Position numbers and translations under genes: made by a program | Notes under the pieces: model-generated | The model's database searches: none | What the model was told of the DNA's origin: nothing | Seen by the model: only the letters and a program-made list of their open reading frames with translations | NCBI GenBank assembly: GCA_030272155.1 | Contig: CP126203.1 | Location: 992,001 to 1,056,000 of the forward strand | Direction: 5' to 3' | Length of the DNA stretch: 64,000 nucleotides | Source: Tetradesmus obliquus | Taxonomy: Eukaryota > Chlorophyta > Chlorophyceae > Sphaeropleales > Scenedesmaceae | Part shown: piece by piece, positions 58,794 through 64,000 of the stretch | How the letters are laid out: each line of letters begins with the position of its first letter | How positions within the stretch are numbered: position 1 is the first letter of the stretch

Positions 58794-60191
58794 CCGGCCC
58801 CATGGTCATGACCATTAGCACTGCTGCTCAGCAGCACGGAACGCCAGAAGGGAAGTAGACTGCTCTGCCACACTGGCTAGGCCATCCAGCCCTGCGCATG
58901 TTTCTGGAAAAGTTATGTTGTGTGTGCTACAGTCCTCTGCACACCTCATCAGCATGTGTGATAGCTGCCCGGCCATGGCCTGTGGCCACAGGCTGTGGCT
59001 GCAACACTGACTGACCCCCTGAGGGGGGCAGGCAAGGGCAGGCGGCTCCTGCAGCTCAAAAAGAGGCTTGTCTGTTGCCCGCAGGCCCAACAAGCACTAC
59101 AAAGGATCTATTAAAAAGTTTGCACCTGCCGTTGCTGGCTTTCGCCGCAGTCACCACCACCCCTAACGGCAGTAAGAGTTACTGCTATAAGCCTGCGTTC
59201 GTACTACTAATTCGTCTTGACTTTCACATCGAAGTATGAAGCCATACATATATAAGTTTAGCGTTTTTGTATAGCTCGCAGCGCTGCGTGCTCGCGGGTG
59301 TCAGTGTGCTTTGGCCGTTGGCATGGCAATCACGTGCCAGAAGCTCCGATGATACTTCGACAAGAGGAATCCAGCTTATTCAAAGCAGATATATAAAAAG
59401 AAACATTCTTATAGGACTCGCTTGTGACTGTCAGGACCCTCCGACAACAGCCTATAAGCGCACAGCTAACAGTGGGGTAGGGTACGAACCTAGCATCCCA
59501 GATATGAGACAAAGCCACATAGCACACAAACAGAAAGCCATGCTGGCACAGCAACCTGCTGCTTGTGGTAGGTACAGCAAGGCACAGCTGCTGAACCTGC
59601 TGCCTTGGTTTGCTTGCATGTCAGCTGTCCTGCAGGCACCTCACCTGCTTGCAGCGCCCGCTCCAAACTGCTAGTTTTTTTCAGCTCCAGAATTCAGCGT
59701 GATCACACAAGATGAATGTCTGCAGGAGAGTGTGTGGACTGGCAGCACTCAACCAACTGTGCTCAACCACCCTAGCTGCACACGCGCAGCAGCTGCCTGT
59801 AATGCTGAAACGTTGATCGGTGATAAGCAACAAGATTAGCAGCAGCAGCACAGCGCACAACGTACAGGGCCAGACAGCAGACCGCAACAACAGCGGCAGG
59901 GCACTTGGCACACCACAGCTGCAGAGCCCGATCAGCCAGCAGGTGCTGCCCAGAAGTAGAAACGGTTACATAAATACATATGTGCAGGCAGCAGCGCCCT
60001 ATAGCAGCAGAAAGCAGCAGATAACAGACCCGCGAAAATTCAAAGAGTCGGGGCGCAGCAGGTGGTTTGCAAGCACTTTACTCAAGTTACACAGCACCCC
60101 ATATAGTGGCTCAATTTGATTTAGATTCGTTGTTGAAAGTTGCATTTAATGAGTATGCTGCCTTTGCGCTACTTTCGTACCAGTGCCTAGT
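58794..60191. other. Region between the TIR element and the transposase; no gene supported
   Basis: One plus-strand frame at 59267-59674 encodes an Arg/Ala-rich protein with no recognisable domain and is not called. A minus-strand Pol III B-box-like AGGTTCGTACC lies at 59481-59491; a similar GGTTCAAATCC lies at 58449-58459 inside the preceding element. Neither folds convincingly into a tRNA. Confidence 0.45.
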
Positions 60192-60301
60192 GAAGGCTGG
60201 TCAAACTCCAGGTTGCTGCAAACATTAGGTTGACCTGACATGTTATTTCTGTTTGCACTGCTAGCAGAAGCACAGCTGACTCCTGCATATGTTTTGAATC
60301 C

Positions 60302-62517
60302 ATGGCTGCAGGGTGGCTGTCCATGGTGCGCAAGCACCCTTTGGGATGGGAGAGCAACCGCAAGTCAACGGGCGCGCGGGTGGCGGCGGTGGTGGCGGTG
60401 CTCACGATGCTAGCCATCGCCGGCAGTCCAAAGGGTGCGGCAGGCTATTACAGAGTACACTTTCCTAAGCATGCTGCTCAAATCAAACAGGACCTGAATT
60501 CCTTCTGCATGACCCACTACAAGAACTTCAAGCAGTATGGCACGGTGGCAACTCCCAAGCACAAGGGCAGACCCCCAAAAGTCCCAGATGACGTGGCATT
60601 AAAGGCCAGTGAAACATTCAAAGCTGGCAAGGTAGTCAAGGCCTACCCAAGTGCAGAAGCAAAGAAGAAAGTCGACGTGCATGTATGGTGGACATCAATC
60701 AAACTTGCTTGTCAGGAAAATGAGTACCTGGGTGGCCTATGCAGGAAGTACAACATCAGGCCCAAGCAACTGCTGAAGCGCATGAAAGCTGTTGACCCCA
60801 ACCTGGTGCGCAGAAGAATAGATGTGAAGATGGACCTGACAGACAAGCAGAAAGACAGGAGAAAGGCTGCAGCAGAGAGGCTCTACAAGATGTTCCAGGA
60901 TGAGCCAGACTTGCTGAGCAGAATTTATTTTGTTGATGAGTGCAAACTCTGGATGTCCAACCTAGCAGGCGGCGCCATCAAGGTGTATTGCGATGCACAT
61001 GATGCAAACGTACATGCTGTGCTACCATGCAAGTGGATGCGCAAGGGCCAGGACAACAAACCAGTCAAGCTACACTTTGTGTGCGCCGTCAACGCGGTGC
61101 ACGGCGCTGTCTACTGCAAGTTCACCACCGGCACAACAGACAACATTGACCACGTTGGCAACCCCAACACACCATACTATGTGAGTGTGTGCTGCTATTA
61201 CTTAGATGCGCGCCATTGAAAGACATGCCAGCTGTTGCGTTCTGTGTACACACAACGTGGCAGTGCATCTCGCAGTGCCTCAGGGAAGGCGCGCTGCACA
61301 CCGCGGCCTGCGCTGACCATAACAGCAGAGTAGCTTGGTGACAGCACAATGACACCACCCCCAGCAGCAAGCTGGAAACCAGTCTCCAGGGAATCCTGCC
61401 AGTCACTTTCACATGTGCGCACCCGCAGCACACTGCCGCCTGCTGGCAGGAACTTGGCATACGCAGCAGCACAGAAGGCAACGTCGCGCTGCAACAGCTT
61501 CTCTGTGCTGTTGTCATACATACCAGTGTCATGGCATGTCCCATCTGCTTGAATCAGCACGCTGCGCTGCGCATGCAAGAAATCGACCCGGCCTCGCCAC
61601 CACCCTACTGCCACTTGCGCGCACATGCTGTCACATATTCCCAACCTGTACAGCTTGCGCATCAGCTGCTCCTCACTTGCAGGCATGTTGCGTGCGCCTG
61701 TGCCACCCACTTTAGGCATCAAACATGCACACTGCTTGCACTCCAGAGCTGCTTCAGTTGCGGCAGCGCGCGGCTCGCAGAACTTGAAGTGCTGCACACC
61801 TGGCAGGCAGCCCGTCATGGCCCAGTACAGTGGCCGCTTGCGTATCCCCAAGCTGATGATCCTGGGCCTGCTTTTACCATCTGCCTCAAGCCTGATGAAT
61901 GGGCGTCCCTTTTCATCCACTTGCACATTCAGCTGCGCTGCTGCTAACAAGGCTTTCCGCTGCCAACCCGGCAAAACCTGCACCTGCAGTTGAAGAGGCA
62001 GAAGAAGAAGAAGAACGTGAAGGCCAAGAGCATGACACAGCTGGAGTTTGTCCACTGCATGAAGGAGCTTGCAGAGAAGGCTAACCAACAGCAGCGCGCG
62101 CGCGGCACTACGCCGCTGTACATCTTCGACAACCCCAGTGTTCATGTCGGGCAGGATGCCGCAGAGCTCCTAGCTGCAGTTGGCATCAGCCCAGAGCAGG
62201 TGCTGCAAATTGCACCCTACTCCCCAGACTTCAACCAGCCCATTGAGCATGCATTCGGCAGCCTCAAGGCTAGCTTCCGCAACCATCTGTACAACACCTA
62301 CCAGCTGACTGGTGCAGATGTATCACCGCGTGATCTGCAGCGGACGCTGCGTGACATATTCATGAACATCACACCTGCCTCTGTCATGGCTGATGCACTG
62401 AGGCTGCCAGATTTGTGGGATGTGGTGCGCAGCAGGCTGGACAGGGTGTTTGTATGCCGTGACAACAAGCAGCGCACGGGTACGGCTGGCAACTGGCCTA
62501 GGGATGATCAGCGCTGA
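60302..62517 (+). CDS. Tc1/mariner-type (IS630 superfamily) DDE transposase, two exons, 468 aa
   Basis: Exons 60302-61180 and 61990-62517 join in phase 0 across a GTGAGT...CTGCAG intron of 809 bp. The catalytic triad is intact: IYFVDECKLWM (Asp 212), LYIFDNPSVH (Asp 340), and APYSPDFNQPIEHAFGSLK (Glu 379). The last is the PYSPDxNPIEHxW block of this superfamily. There are 38 residues between the second Asp and the Glu (DD38E). The N-terminal third holds a basic segment with KHKGRPPK and a probable DNA-binding helical region. No internal stop or frame break is seen, so the gene may be active. Terminal repeats were not found next to it. The intron contains an antisense nuclease-like ORF (next entry). 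The 5' end, including 110 bp upstream, is repeated exactly at 63779-64000. Confidence 0.88.
61181..61989 (+). other. Transposase intron hosting an antisense ORF
   Basis: The donor TAT|GTGAGT at 61181 and acceptor ACCTGCAG|TTG at 61989 preserve phase 0 between the first and second catalytic Asp. At 809 bp it is of ordinary length for this genome, but unlike the other introns in the window it lacks CTG tracts and exon echoes and instead is open in one minus-strand frame from end to end. Confidence 0.75.
61198..61818 (-). CDS. PD-(D/E)XK (DUF559/Vsr-like) nuclease-like protein, antisense inside the transposase intron
   Basis: The frame is open on the minus strand across the whole intron and beyond (from 62145). 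The ATG at 61818 gives 206 aa and is the first in-frame start inside the intron; 61719 and 61686 are alternatives. It contains a possible zinc-ribbon-like pair (CEP...ECKQC), then SEEQLMRKLYRLG, WWRGRVDFLHAQ, VLIQADGTCHD, LLQRDVAF and GGSVLRV. That order, R-x-DF, hydrophobic-(E)-x-DG-x-x-H, later R-D and G-x-VLRV, is the core of DUF559/Vsr-type restriction-like nucleases. The usual Glu before x-DG is Gln here, so catalysis is uncertain. RAP domains share this fold and are the main alternative. The TAA at 61198-61200 lies only 17 bases inside the intron. Expression would need its own promoter. Confidence 0.55.
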   Translation of the reverse strand: MTGCLPGVQHFKFCEPRAAATEAALECKQCACLMPKVGGTGARNMPASEEQLMRKLYRLGICDSMCAQVAVGWWRGRVDFLHAQRSVLIQADGTCHDTGMYDNSTEKLLQRDVAFCAAAYAKFLPAGGSVLRVRTCESDWQDSLETGFQLAAGGGVIVLSPSYSAVMVSAGRGVQRAFPEALRDALPRCVYTERNSWHVFQWRASK

Positions 62518-63778
62518 GCACGCTGCTGCTGCTGCTGCTGCAGGGCTTAGAATGTATATGGCTGCTGGCTGCACTCTAGACAGCTAGCAGCTGTCAGCAG
62601 GTCGTTGATTGACACTCCCTGCAAGCTCACCTTTCTGACAGCTCCTCTGCTGGTTGGGCTCCTGTGTGTGCGCACCGCACGGCGCCGGCGATGTGCTGGT
62701 GCCATGCTGTAGCTGGGTGGTTATGTCTCTGTTTTCAACTGTATGCCAGCATGGACAGCCACAGGCATGATAAGTTGATAGATTGTTATCTGATAATAAT
62801 TGTCAGATGGTGTATTGGTGCATAGACTGGCCCAGAGTGAAAAGCGCGCGCGCGTGGCAAGGCAGTTCTGCCAGGGCAGCAGTGCTGTTGATGGGCAGTT
62901 CACATGCAGGCGAGTTGAGCCAATGTGCGTGAATGATTGTACTTGTTACGGCTAAAATTAATTATTGTACGTGCTAACATGTGCTTCATGCAGCTCCAGC
63001 TACTGAACCACACGTTACTTGTCTCAACGGTTGCCCTACCAAGCAGGATGCTTTGATGTTGCTGCACTCTTGGCATTGTAATAACATCTATTCAAGTATT
63101 TAATTGAGCTGACGCACGGCAGGAGAAAGCTGTGTTTGAGTCAGGTAATCCGTGACGGGGAAGTGCTGCCGAATCAGCCACTCTCGATGCAGACAGCTGT
63201 CACGCTGCAAACTTATCCTCATACATAACAGCTGATTCTTACATCTTACTGGGCCGAGAATTTTCTCCGGTGGGACGCCGGGCAGCCAGCCTGGTCACGG
63301 AGCCAGTGAGTCCAAGACACCTGTGCAGGCTATGCCAGCTCGATCGTGCTGCGGCAGCAACAGCAGACAATTCGGATTGCTTTTAAAACGTCTTTCAAGA
63401 CAAGGCTGTGCTCTGAATGTGCTTTTGTGAATTTAGCAGCAGCACTGCATGACCACCAGGCTGCTGCTGCTGCTGTCTTGCCTGGCAAAGTGTGCATTCG
63501 AAAAACAGAGGCTACAGCAGGTGACAGCACCCTCCTCTGAGCTGCACTCTGCTGTCTGCTGCTGAATGTGCTGCTGGCCAGGCAGGTCCCAGCAATTGCA
63601 AACAACAGTAATGCAGGATTTGGGACAGCTGCACCACCAGCAGCAGTTGCAGCAGGCCTGCTATAACATAAAAAGGTGGGCAGGCATTTCATCAACTTTG
63701 CCCAGAAACAGCAGCAGCAGGATTGCAATGCAGGCTGAGAACTGCTGCAGCAAAGGAAGATGTGCATTTTTGCCTTCA
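62518..63778. other. 3' flank of the transposase; no gene supported
   Basis: It contains a short (CTG)n tract just after the stop and AT-richer sequence around 62760-63120. I searched for an inverted copy of the conserved upstream block (the AAGGCTGGTCAAACTCC end) and found none, so the element's 3' border is not defined. Confidence 0.5.
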
Positions 63779-64000
63779 GAAGGCTGGTCAAACTCCAGGT
63801 TGCTGCAAACATTAGGTTGACCTGACATGTTATTTCTGTTTGCACTGCTAGCAGAAGCACAGCTGACTCCTGCATATGTTTTGAATCCATGGCTGCAGGG
63901 TGGCTGTCCATGGTGCGCAAGCACCCTTTGGGATGGGAGAGCAACCGCAAGTCAACGGGCGCGCGGGTGGCGGCGGTGGTGGCGGTGCTCACGATGCTAG
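63779..64000 (+). mobile_element. 5' end of a second transposase copy, cut by the window edge
   Basis: 63779-64000 is identical, as far as I can read, to 60192-60413: 110 bases of leader and the first 37 codons (ATG at 63889, MAAGWLSMVRKHPLGW...). Upstream of 63779 the two loci are unrelated, so this position is the left boundary of the shared unit. Identity over 222 bp suggests a recent duplication or transposition. Confidence 0.88.

Follow-up and report, generated by a model that had tools for sequence, protein, structure and literature searches.

The window analyzed here is a 64,000-nucleotide stretch of the Tetradesmus obliquus genome (contig CP126203.1, C13 in our numbering; C13:992001-1056000), and it holds the start of a tandem array of a mobile element, the next copy of which begins at position 63780. 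The element is best explained as a two-gene DNA transposon in which a transposase is accompanied by an accessory, possibly cutting, DUF559-like protein encoded on the opposite strand, a reading to which we assign a probability of about 0.55. The transposase and nuclease-like genes appear, from their predicted splice sites, to be interlocked, with the second exon of each lying inside the predicted intron of the other. Since one exon of each gene seems to sit in the other's intron, the nuclease-like gene probably has a genuine function within the element. The original prediction had confined both genes to 60302..62517; the interrupted transposase frame and the open antisense frame were confirmed, while this span turned out to be only a part of the larger element and its array.

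Two apparently interlocked genes and a predicted shared acceptor

Copies of the element were compared as family A, to which the window's copy belongs, and family B, and selection was expressed as the ratio of nonsynonymous to synonymous substitution rates (dN/dS). The features of the two genes are as follows.

60302..61180, plus strand: transposase exon 1 (dN/dS 0.40, A versus B)
61181..61989, plus strand: transposase intron, phase 0, GTGAGT...CTGCAG, 809 bp, predicted splicing
61990..62517, plus strand: transposase exon 2, which carries the larger part of the DDE_3 match (dN/dS 0.40, A versus B)
62631..62705, minus strand: predicted exon 1 of the nuclease-like gene, 25 codons, basic, MAPAHRRRRAVRTHRSPTSRGAVRK; the only conserved ATG-to-GTRAG mini-exon in the 3' flank
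61984..62630, minus strand: predicted intron of the nuclease-like gene, phase 0, GTGAGC...CTGCAG; holds the whole of transposase exon 2
61198..61983, minus strand: exon 2 of the nuclease-like gene, 261 codons plus stop, with the DUF559-like core RVDF...IQADG...
61984..61989, no strand assigned: CTGCAG palindrome, at which both genes are predicted to have their 3' splice site

The 1261-bp 3' flank was scanned on both strands and in all three phases for mini-exons that start with ATG, are at least 15 nt long, end in a GTRAG donor and are conserved between families A and B. Exactly one was found, at 62705-62631 on the minus strand and in phase 0, the phase required to join the CTGCAG acceptor; the other strand and the other phases of this flank yielded none. 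The predicted exon was open and began with ATG in 43 of 44 loci, the exception being the truncated locus L043, which ends before it, and the CTGCAG predicted as acceptor on both strands was kept in 44 of 44, counts that are not independent since these loci represent 42 distinct copies and 38 of the loci belong to the near-identical family A. When joined, the two exons of the nuclease-like gene give a predicted protein of 286 aa with a basic first exon.

The antisense gene thus placed probably starts outside the transposase intron, beyond transposase exon 2. Of the originally proposed nesting in that intron, exon 2 of the nuclease-like gene stands, but the conserved predicted first exon lies elsewhere, and a 206-aa product with a start codon within the intron is disfavoured, as the aligned relatives extend further upstream. 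The predicted acceptor shared by the two strands is palindromic, so that no coding base of one mRNA would be complementary to a coding base of the other.

The antisense frame and its selection

The antisense frame is more than chance. It is open on the minus strand from 62169 to 61198 (323 aa, stop to stop), its stop codon at 61198-61200 ends 17 bases from the donor of the transposase intron, and the motifs RVDF, QADGTCH, LLQRD, and VLRV are all present in it, in each respect as originally described. Only 22 of 20000 first-order Markov sequences of equal composition were fully open (in any of three frames, one strand). The genome searched comprises 104.66 Mb in 17 contigs. A protein search of it with the antisense frame gave 274 candidates at first look, and the frame was stop-free in 144 of the 145 that were scored, on 10 of the 17 contigs; the other 129 were not scored and could alter this picture. 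A DNA search of the same genome gave 276 candidates, 40 of which were scored. The sole scored copy with a stop in the antisense frame was L043 (C6:5692300-5698299), which is family-A-like and has lost antisense exon 1 through its truncation.

Four copies were compared frame by frame (A, L044, L040, and L039), and the antisense frame was the only one of the intron's six without stops in all of them. It is kept in both families, at about 60% protein identity. Between A and B, nuclease exon 2 showed a dN/dS of 0.60 (P 0.003, by random placement of the same substitutions) and zero stops at about 28% divergence (simulation P 0.0005), and between L044 and L040 a dN/dS of 0.605 (simulation P 0.0035). 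The five other frames of the intron gave A-versus-B values of 0.73 to 1.16, all with stops, so that the antisense frame was the lowest of the six. The A-B alignment of this exon contains two gaps, of 9 and 6 bases, and its sites differ less often (214/774) than those of the non-coding 3' part (442/1051; P 2e-10). For the predicted exon 1, dN/dS was 0.25 between A and L044 (P 0.0045). Purifying selection on the antisense frame, as seen between the two families, is moderate. The original prediction had asked whether the open frame persists in other copies and whether the minus frame is constrained; persistence is seen in 144 of the 145 scored copies, and moderate constraint in the comparison of A with B.

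Several results weigh against this reading. The dN/dS of exon 1 was not significant between A and B (0.64, P 0.22) or between L044 and L040 (0.76, P 0.28), and neither was that of exon 2 between A and L044 (0.62, P 0.21), a pair in which another frame was lower. With 8 nonsynonymous changes against 1 synonymous, the close pair L039-L040 gives no sign of recent constraint. Moreover, antisense frames lying over the transposase exons reach dN/dS values of 0.52 and 0.59 as a mere shadow of sense coding.

Three restrictions apply to these comparisons. The A-versus-L044 dN/dS value for transposase exon 1 was dropped, as the alignment of L044 with A does not begin until unit position 405, and the corresponding simulation used the last 63 codons of that exon only; the A-versus-L043 value was dropped because L043 is truncated. 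L044 itself (C6:5536900-5542899) is a mosaic: the part of its exon 1 that was read diverges from family A about as much as family B does, while its intron region is only 5.6% diverged. It carries a stop in transposase exon 2, and its antisense frame is open.

The transposase gene and its intron

The interruption of the transposase by one 809-bp intron, the starting point of the original prediction, was borne out: the intron has GT-AG borders, and the exons join in frame to give a protein of 468 aa, the splicing itself being predicted. This protein matched the Pfam family DDE_3 with an E value of 1.2e-6 and 28.9 bits against a cut-off of 28.6, a bare pass. In the Pfam scan of the 468-aa protein at E up to 1, DDE_3 was the sole family listed, and no CACTA-type transposase family was found.

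A protein search with the transposase returned 11 matches, all of them to exon 1 only. Ten of the 11 relatives have V-S at the donor column, as GTGAGT would read (judged from proteins only, their DNA not having been seen), and these ten stop within about 10 residues of that column; the 11th, P0032, has V-G there and reads on. This shared V-S position makes the intron site look old, across relatives of 33 to 93% identity.

The nuclease-like protein and its relatives

A protein search with the antisense frame gave 22 matches at 55 to 98% identity, and a search with the alignment of relatives gave 29, among them two new and distant proteins, P0039 and P0040, with 25 to 26% identity. When 23 aligned proteins were scanned against the Pfam family DUF559 (PF04480), 16 matched at E up to 10, the best with an E value of 0.0018. 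P0020 scored 16.6 bits, the alignment consensus reached an E value of 0.075, and the window's own antisense protein had an E value of 0.23 and 11.8 bits, below the curated cut-off of 20.6. The DUF559 likeness originally proposed is thus repeated across relatives but weak, staying below the family cut-off. As for the possible Cys-rich ribbon, the Cys residues that could form it are largely retained, with P0005 and P0040 each missing one.

The DUF559 or PD-(D/E)XK core has the form D...ExDG with a helix Glu and a following Arg. In the 23-row alignment the following residues were well conserved (D136, 23/23; Q147, 23/23; D169, 22/23; D149, 21/23; E106, 20/22; R189, 21/22), with Gly in place of D149 in P0004 and P0011; a ten-row comparison of relatives was hand-chosen and left these two out. 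All six residues are kept in the distant P0039 and P0040. Position 147, Gln in all 23 rows, is usually Glu in DUF559, which speaks against a cutting enzyme. Since the DUF559 match lies below the cut-off and the usual Glu is Gln, nuclease activity can be called only possible.

The same evidence bears on the more probable of the alternatives, in which the antisense gene makes a protein that binds DNA or RNA without catalysis (RAP-like, or DUF559-like but with an inactive site) and thereby controls the transposase or the RNA of the element. The invariant Gln, the basic first exon, the mostly conserved Cys and the subthreshold DUF559 score would all suit such a binder. The good preservation of the other core residues, with D136, D149, D169, and E106 intact even in P0039 and P0040, is at odds with it, and we regard a non-catalytic role as a tentative alternative to the accessory, possibly cutting protein.

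Other searches gave no further affiliation. The Pfam scans of the antisense frame and of the 23 aligned proteins listed no Fanzor/TnpB family (RuvC-type nuclease with a C4 zinc finger). The one match among solved structures searched by sequence (E 0.78) was at chance level, and single-member matches in NCBIfam and PADLOC, with E values of 0.1 and 0.025, were judged to be chance. Pattern searches gave 40 matches in viral contigs and 86 in prokaryote genomes, with no relative among either. For P0001, P0006, P0007, P0009, P0011, and P0024, the longest contigs measure 4.3 to 4.5 kb, or about one array unit, and these may be collapsed tandem arrays in environmental assemblies.

Homing and non-coding alternatives

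A second alternative is that the transposase intron is a spliceosomal homing intron, whose nuclease would cleave transposase alleles that lack the intron and so let it spread into them by copying, a scheme put forward for mirusvirus introns (PMC12768974). Exon 2 of the DUF559-like gene does lie in a predicted intron between canonical splice sites, and divergence profiles of two pairs of copies both revealed a low-divergence block containing the intron: between A and L044 it spans 60992-62091, with 5.6% divergence (62/1100) against 23% just to the left and 12% just to the right, and between L039 and L040 it spans 60492-61991, with 0.9% (14/1497) against 4% to the left and 3 to 7% to the right. 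In close pairs, nuclease exon 2 also showed less synonymous divergence than the exons of the transposase did (L039-L040, P 0.005; L039-L042, P 0.025; A-L044, exon 2 only, P 0.0004). These blocks and the synonymous deficit resemble co-conversion and keep homing alive.

However, the conserved first exon of the nuclease-like gene lies outside the intron, so that a homed intron would carry an incomplete gene; for this reason, the idea that the intron by itself is what moves is disfavoured. The intron site is moreover common to at least 10 of the 11 relatives, and no synonymous deficit was seen between A and B (P 0.39). The pairs are few and not independent, and gene conversion within arrays can produce such blocks without homing. 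A fixed two-gene design agrees better with a first exon outside the intron and an intron site common to relatives, and we consider homing unlikely. It is more improbable still that the intron was kept for a non-coding reason (RNA structure, regulatory DNA or gene conversion) with an incidental open frame: the modest dN/dS, the lack of visible selection in close pairs and their reduced synonymous divergence fit this, but the gap lengths of 9 and 6 bases, the absence of stops over about 28% divergence, the coherent domain in the relatives and the matching first exon do not.

Element anatomy and tandem arrays

The two-gene element turned out to have the structure S-L-S, a coding body (L) between two S modules with inverted repeats. 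The remaining features of the window are as follows.

59470..60192, no strand assigned: S module, 723 bp, left flank of array unit 1, imperfect terminal inverted repeats CAGTGGGGTAGGGTACGAA.. / CACTAGGCACTGGTACGAA.., judged non-coding
60193..63776, plus strand: L body of array unit 1, the coding part, ends AAGGC...GCCTT
63777..63779, no strand assigned: CAG footprint, S-less junction of array units 1 and 2
63780..64000, plus strand: start of the next array unit, identical up to the window end

S modules measure about 723 bp, their imperfect inverted repeats are 24 to 25 bp long, and those of families A and B are 72% identical over 726 columns. In some copies (L040 and L036) the S module is inverted. 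As a gene, S was rejected: its longest stop-free stretch is 101 codons in family A and 194 in family B, with none of the latter length in A. A search of the window against Rfam at the gathering score gave no matches. The ends of L are short inverted repeats that are family-specific yet complementary, AAGGC/GCCTT in A and AGAC/GTCT in B.

Target duplications of 3 bp were found in all three testable insertions, AGC in L039, ATC in L042, and TCA in L040, which are single family-B copies of S-L-S structure with both ends read; the left end of L041 and the insertion ends of L043 and L044 fall outside this comparison. Tc1/mariner-IS630 elements duplicate a TA target site. The transposase's DDE_3 domain points to that group, but the 3-bp duplications in three of three insertions do not. 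CACTA/EnSpm elements have CACTA-like ends, a duplication of 2 to 3 bp and a transposase family of their own. CACTA-like ends are present here, with S ends of CAGTG/CACTA in family A and CAGCT in family B, as are duplications of a suitable length.

Six distinct S-less junctions were found in the C13 array: GCCTT-CAG-AAGGC once, the same with -CTG- four times, and with -CATG- once, L007 and L019 being left out of these classes for want of the exact 60-base start. Such junctions, resembling excision footprints, were seen at L001, L002, L014, L015, L018, and L020. They fit an excision of S that leaves 1 to 2 bases of its CA...TG ends.

The majority of the 145 scored copies are arrayed head to tail, one about every 3.6 or 4.3 kb. 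On C13, family A covers the region between about 1.052 and 1.266 Mb, and it also takes up part of C10; a close relative (98%) is found on C4 and C14. Arrays of family B lie on C1, C4, C12, and C14, and other copies of this family occur singly elsewhere. The arrays on C13, and likewise those on C10, C4, C14, C12, and C1, are long and nearly identical, with some copies reversed, like a transposon-made satellite.

Proposed mechanism and significance

Under the reading of a two-gene transposon, both introns would be removed by the spliceosome, and the transposase would mobilize both S and S-L-S through a cut-and-paste mechanism. The nuclease-like protein, with its basic N terminus, possible zinc ribbon and PD-(D/E)XK-type core, could cut or bind element DNA near empty or S-less sites, where repair from an intact copy would then restore the element. 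Such restoration would help to build and homogenize arrays, an effect comparable to that proposed for TnpB. A bolder version, which we hold to be doubtful, is that the element represents a new transposon design, in which a transposase and a nuclease on opposite strands are reciprocally interlocked and one palindromic hexamer is the 3' splice site of both. Splicing would then remove all complementarity of the coding mRNAs, neither gene could be lost alone, and satellite-like arrays would be built up as the nuclease causes the element to be copied again into sites that are empty or lack S.

If the splicing is real, a compact mobile element packs two genes on both strands with coding mRNAs free of complementarity, and an intron is retained because another gene needs it. 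The element also offers a testable case of a transposon turning into a homogenized tandem satellite by means of mobile end modules.

Comparison with known systems

In Giardia, a sense-antisense overlap keeps introns (PMC6545626), and the likeness is that an antisense gene overlapping an intron may force intron retention; the Giardia genes are cellular ones and not part of a mobile element, and the abstract describes no shared splice site. An antisense homing endonuclease gene in a nuclear group I intron, itself containing a spliceosomal intron (PMC9548176), resembles our case in that an antisense nuclease or nuclease-like gene lies within an intron and has its own spliceosomal intron, predicted here. 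That system involves a self-splicing intron of ribosomal DNA and a His-Cys nuclease, whereas here the intron is predicted to be spliceosomal and the protein is DUF559-like.

Fanzor and TnpB have been described as transposon accessory proteins (PMC3627910), and the present element likewise is a DNA transposon that carries a second, nuclease-like gene, a feature for which Fanzor is the closest known parallel. Unlike Fanzor/TnpB, the protein here is DUF559-like, nothing points to a guide RNA, and the two genes share a predicted splice site. In the parts considered, none of the papers on mirusvirus introns, Fanzor, and the group I intron describes interlocked genes with one acceptor for both strands, and a literature search of a limited library found no such interlocked transposon.

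The closest precedent appears to be the spliceosomal homing introns of mirusviruses (shintrons), in which endonuclease genes lie in introns with typical spliceosomal sites (PMC12768974). That paper counts 16 VSR-like and 15 PD-(D/E)XK cases and presents the association of a nuclease gene with a spliceosomal intron as unobserved before; the word antisense is absent from its main text. The likeness is a spliceosomal-type intron that holds a nuclease-type gene, in our case only its exon 2 and by prediction; if the splicing is real, the nuclease-bearing introns known from mirusviruses would have a counterpart in a DNA transposon within a cellular genome. Unlike in shintrons, the host gene here encodes a transposase and sits in tandem arrays of cellular DNA, and the nested gene is antisense to it, with its exon 2 in a GT-AG intron and its predicted exon 1 outside, an arrangement by which the two genes would be interlocked.
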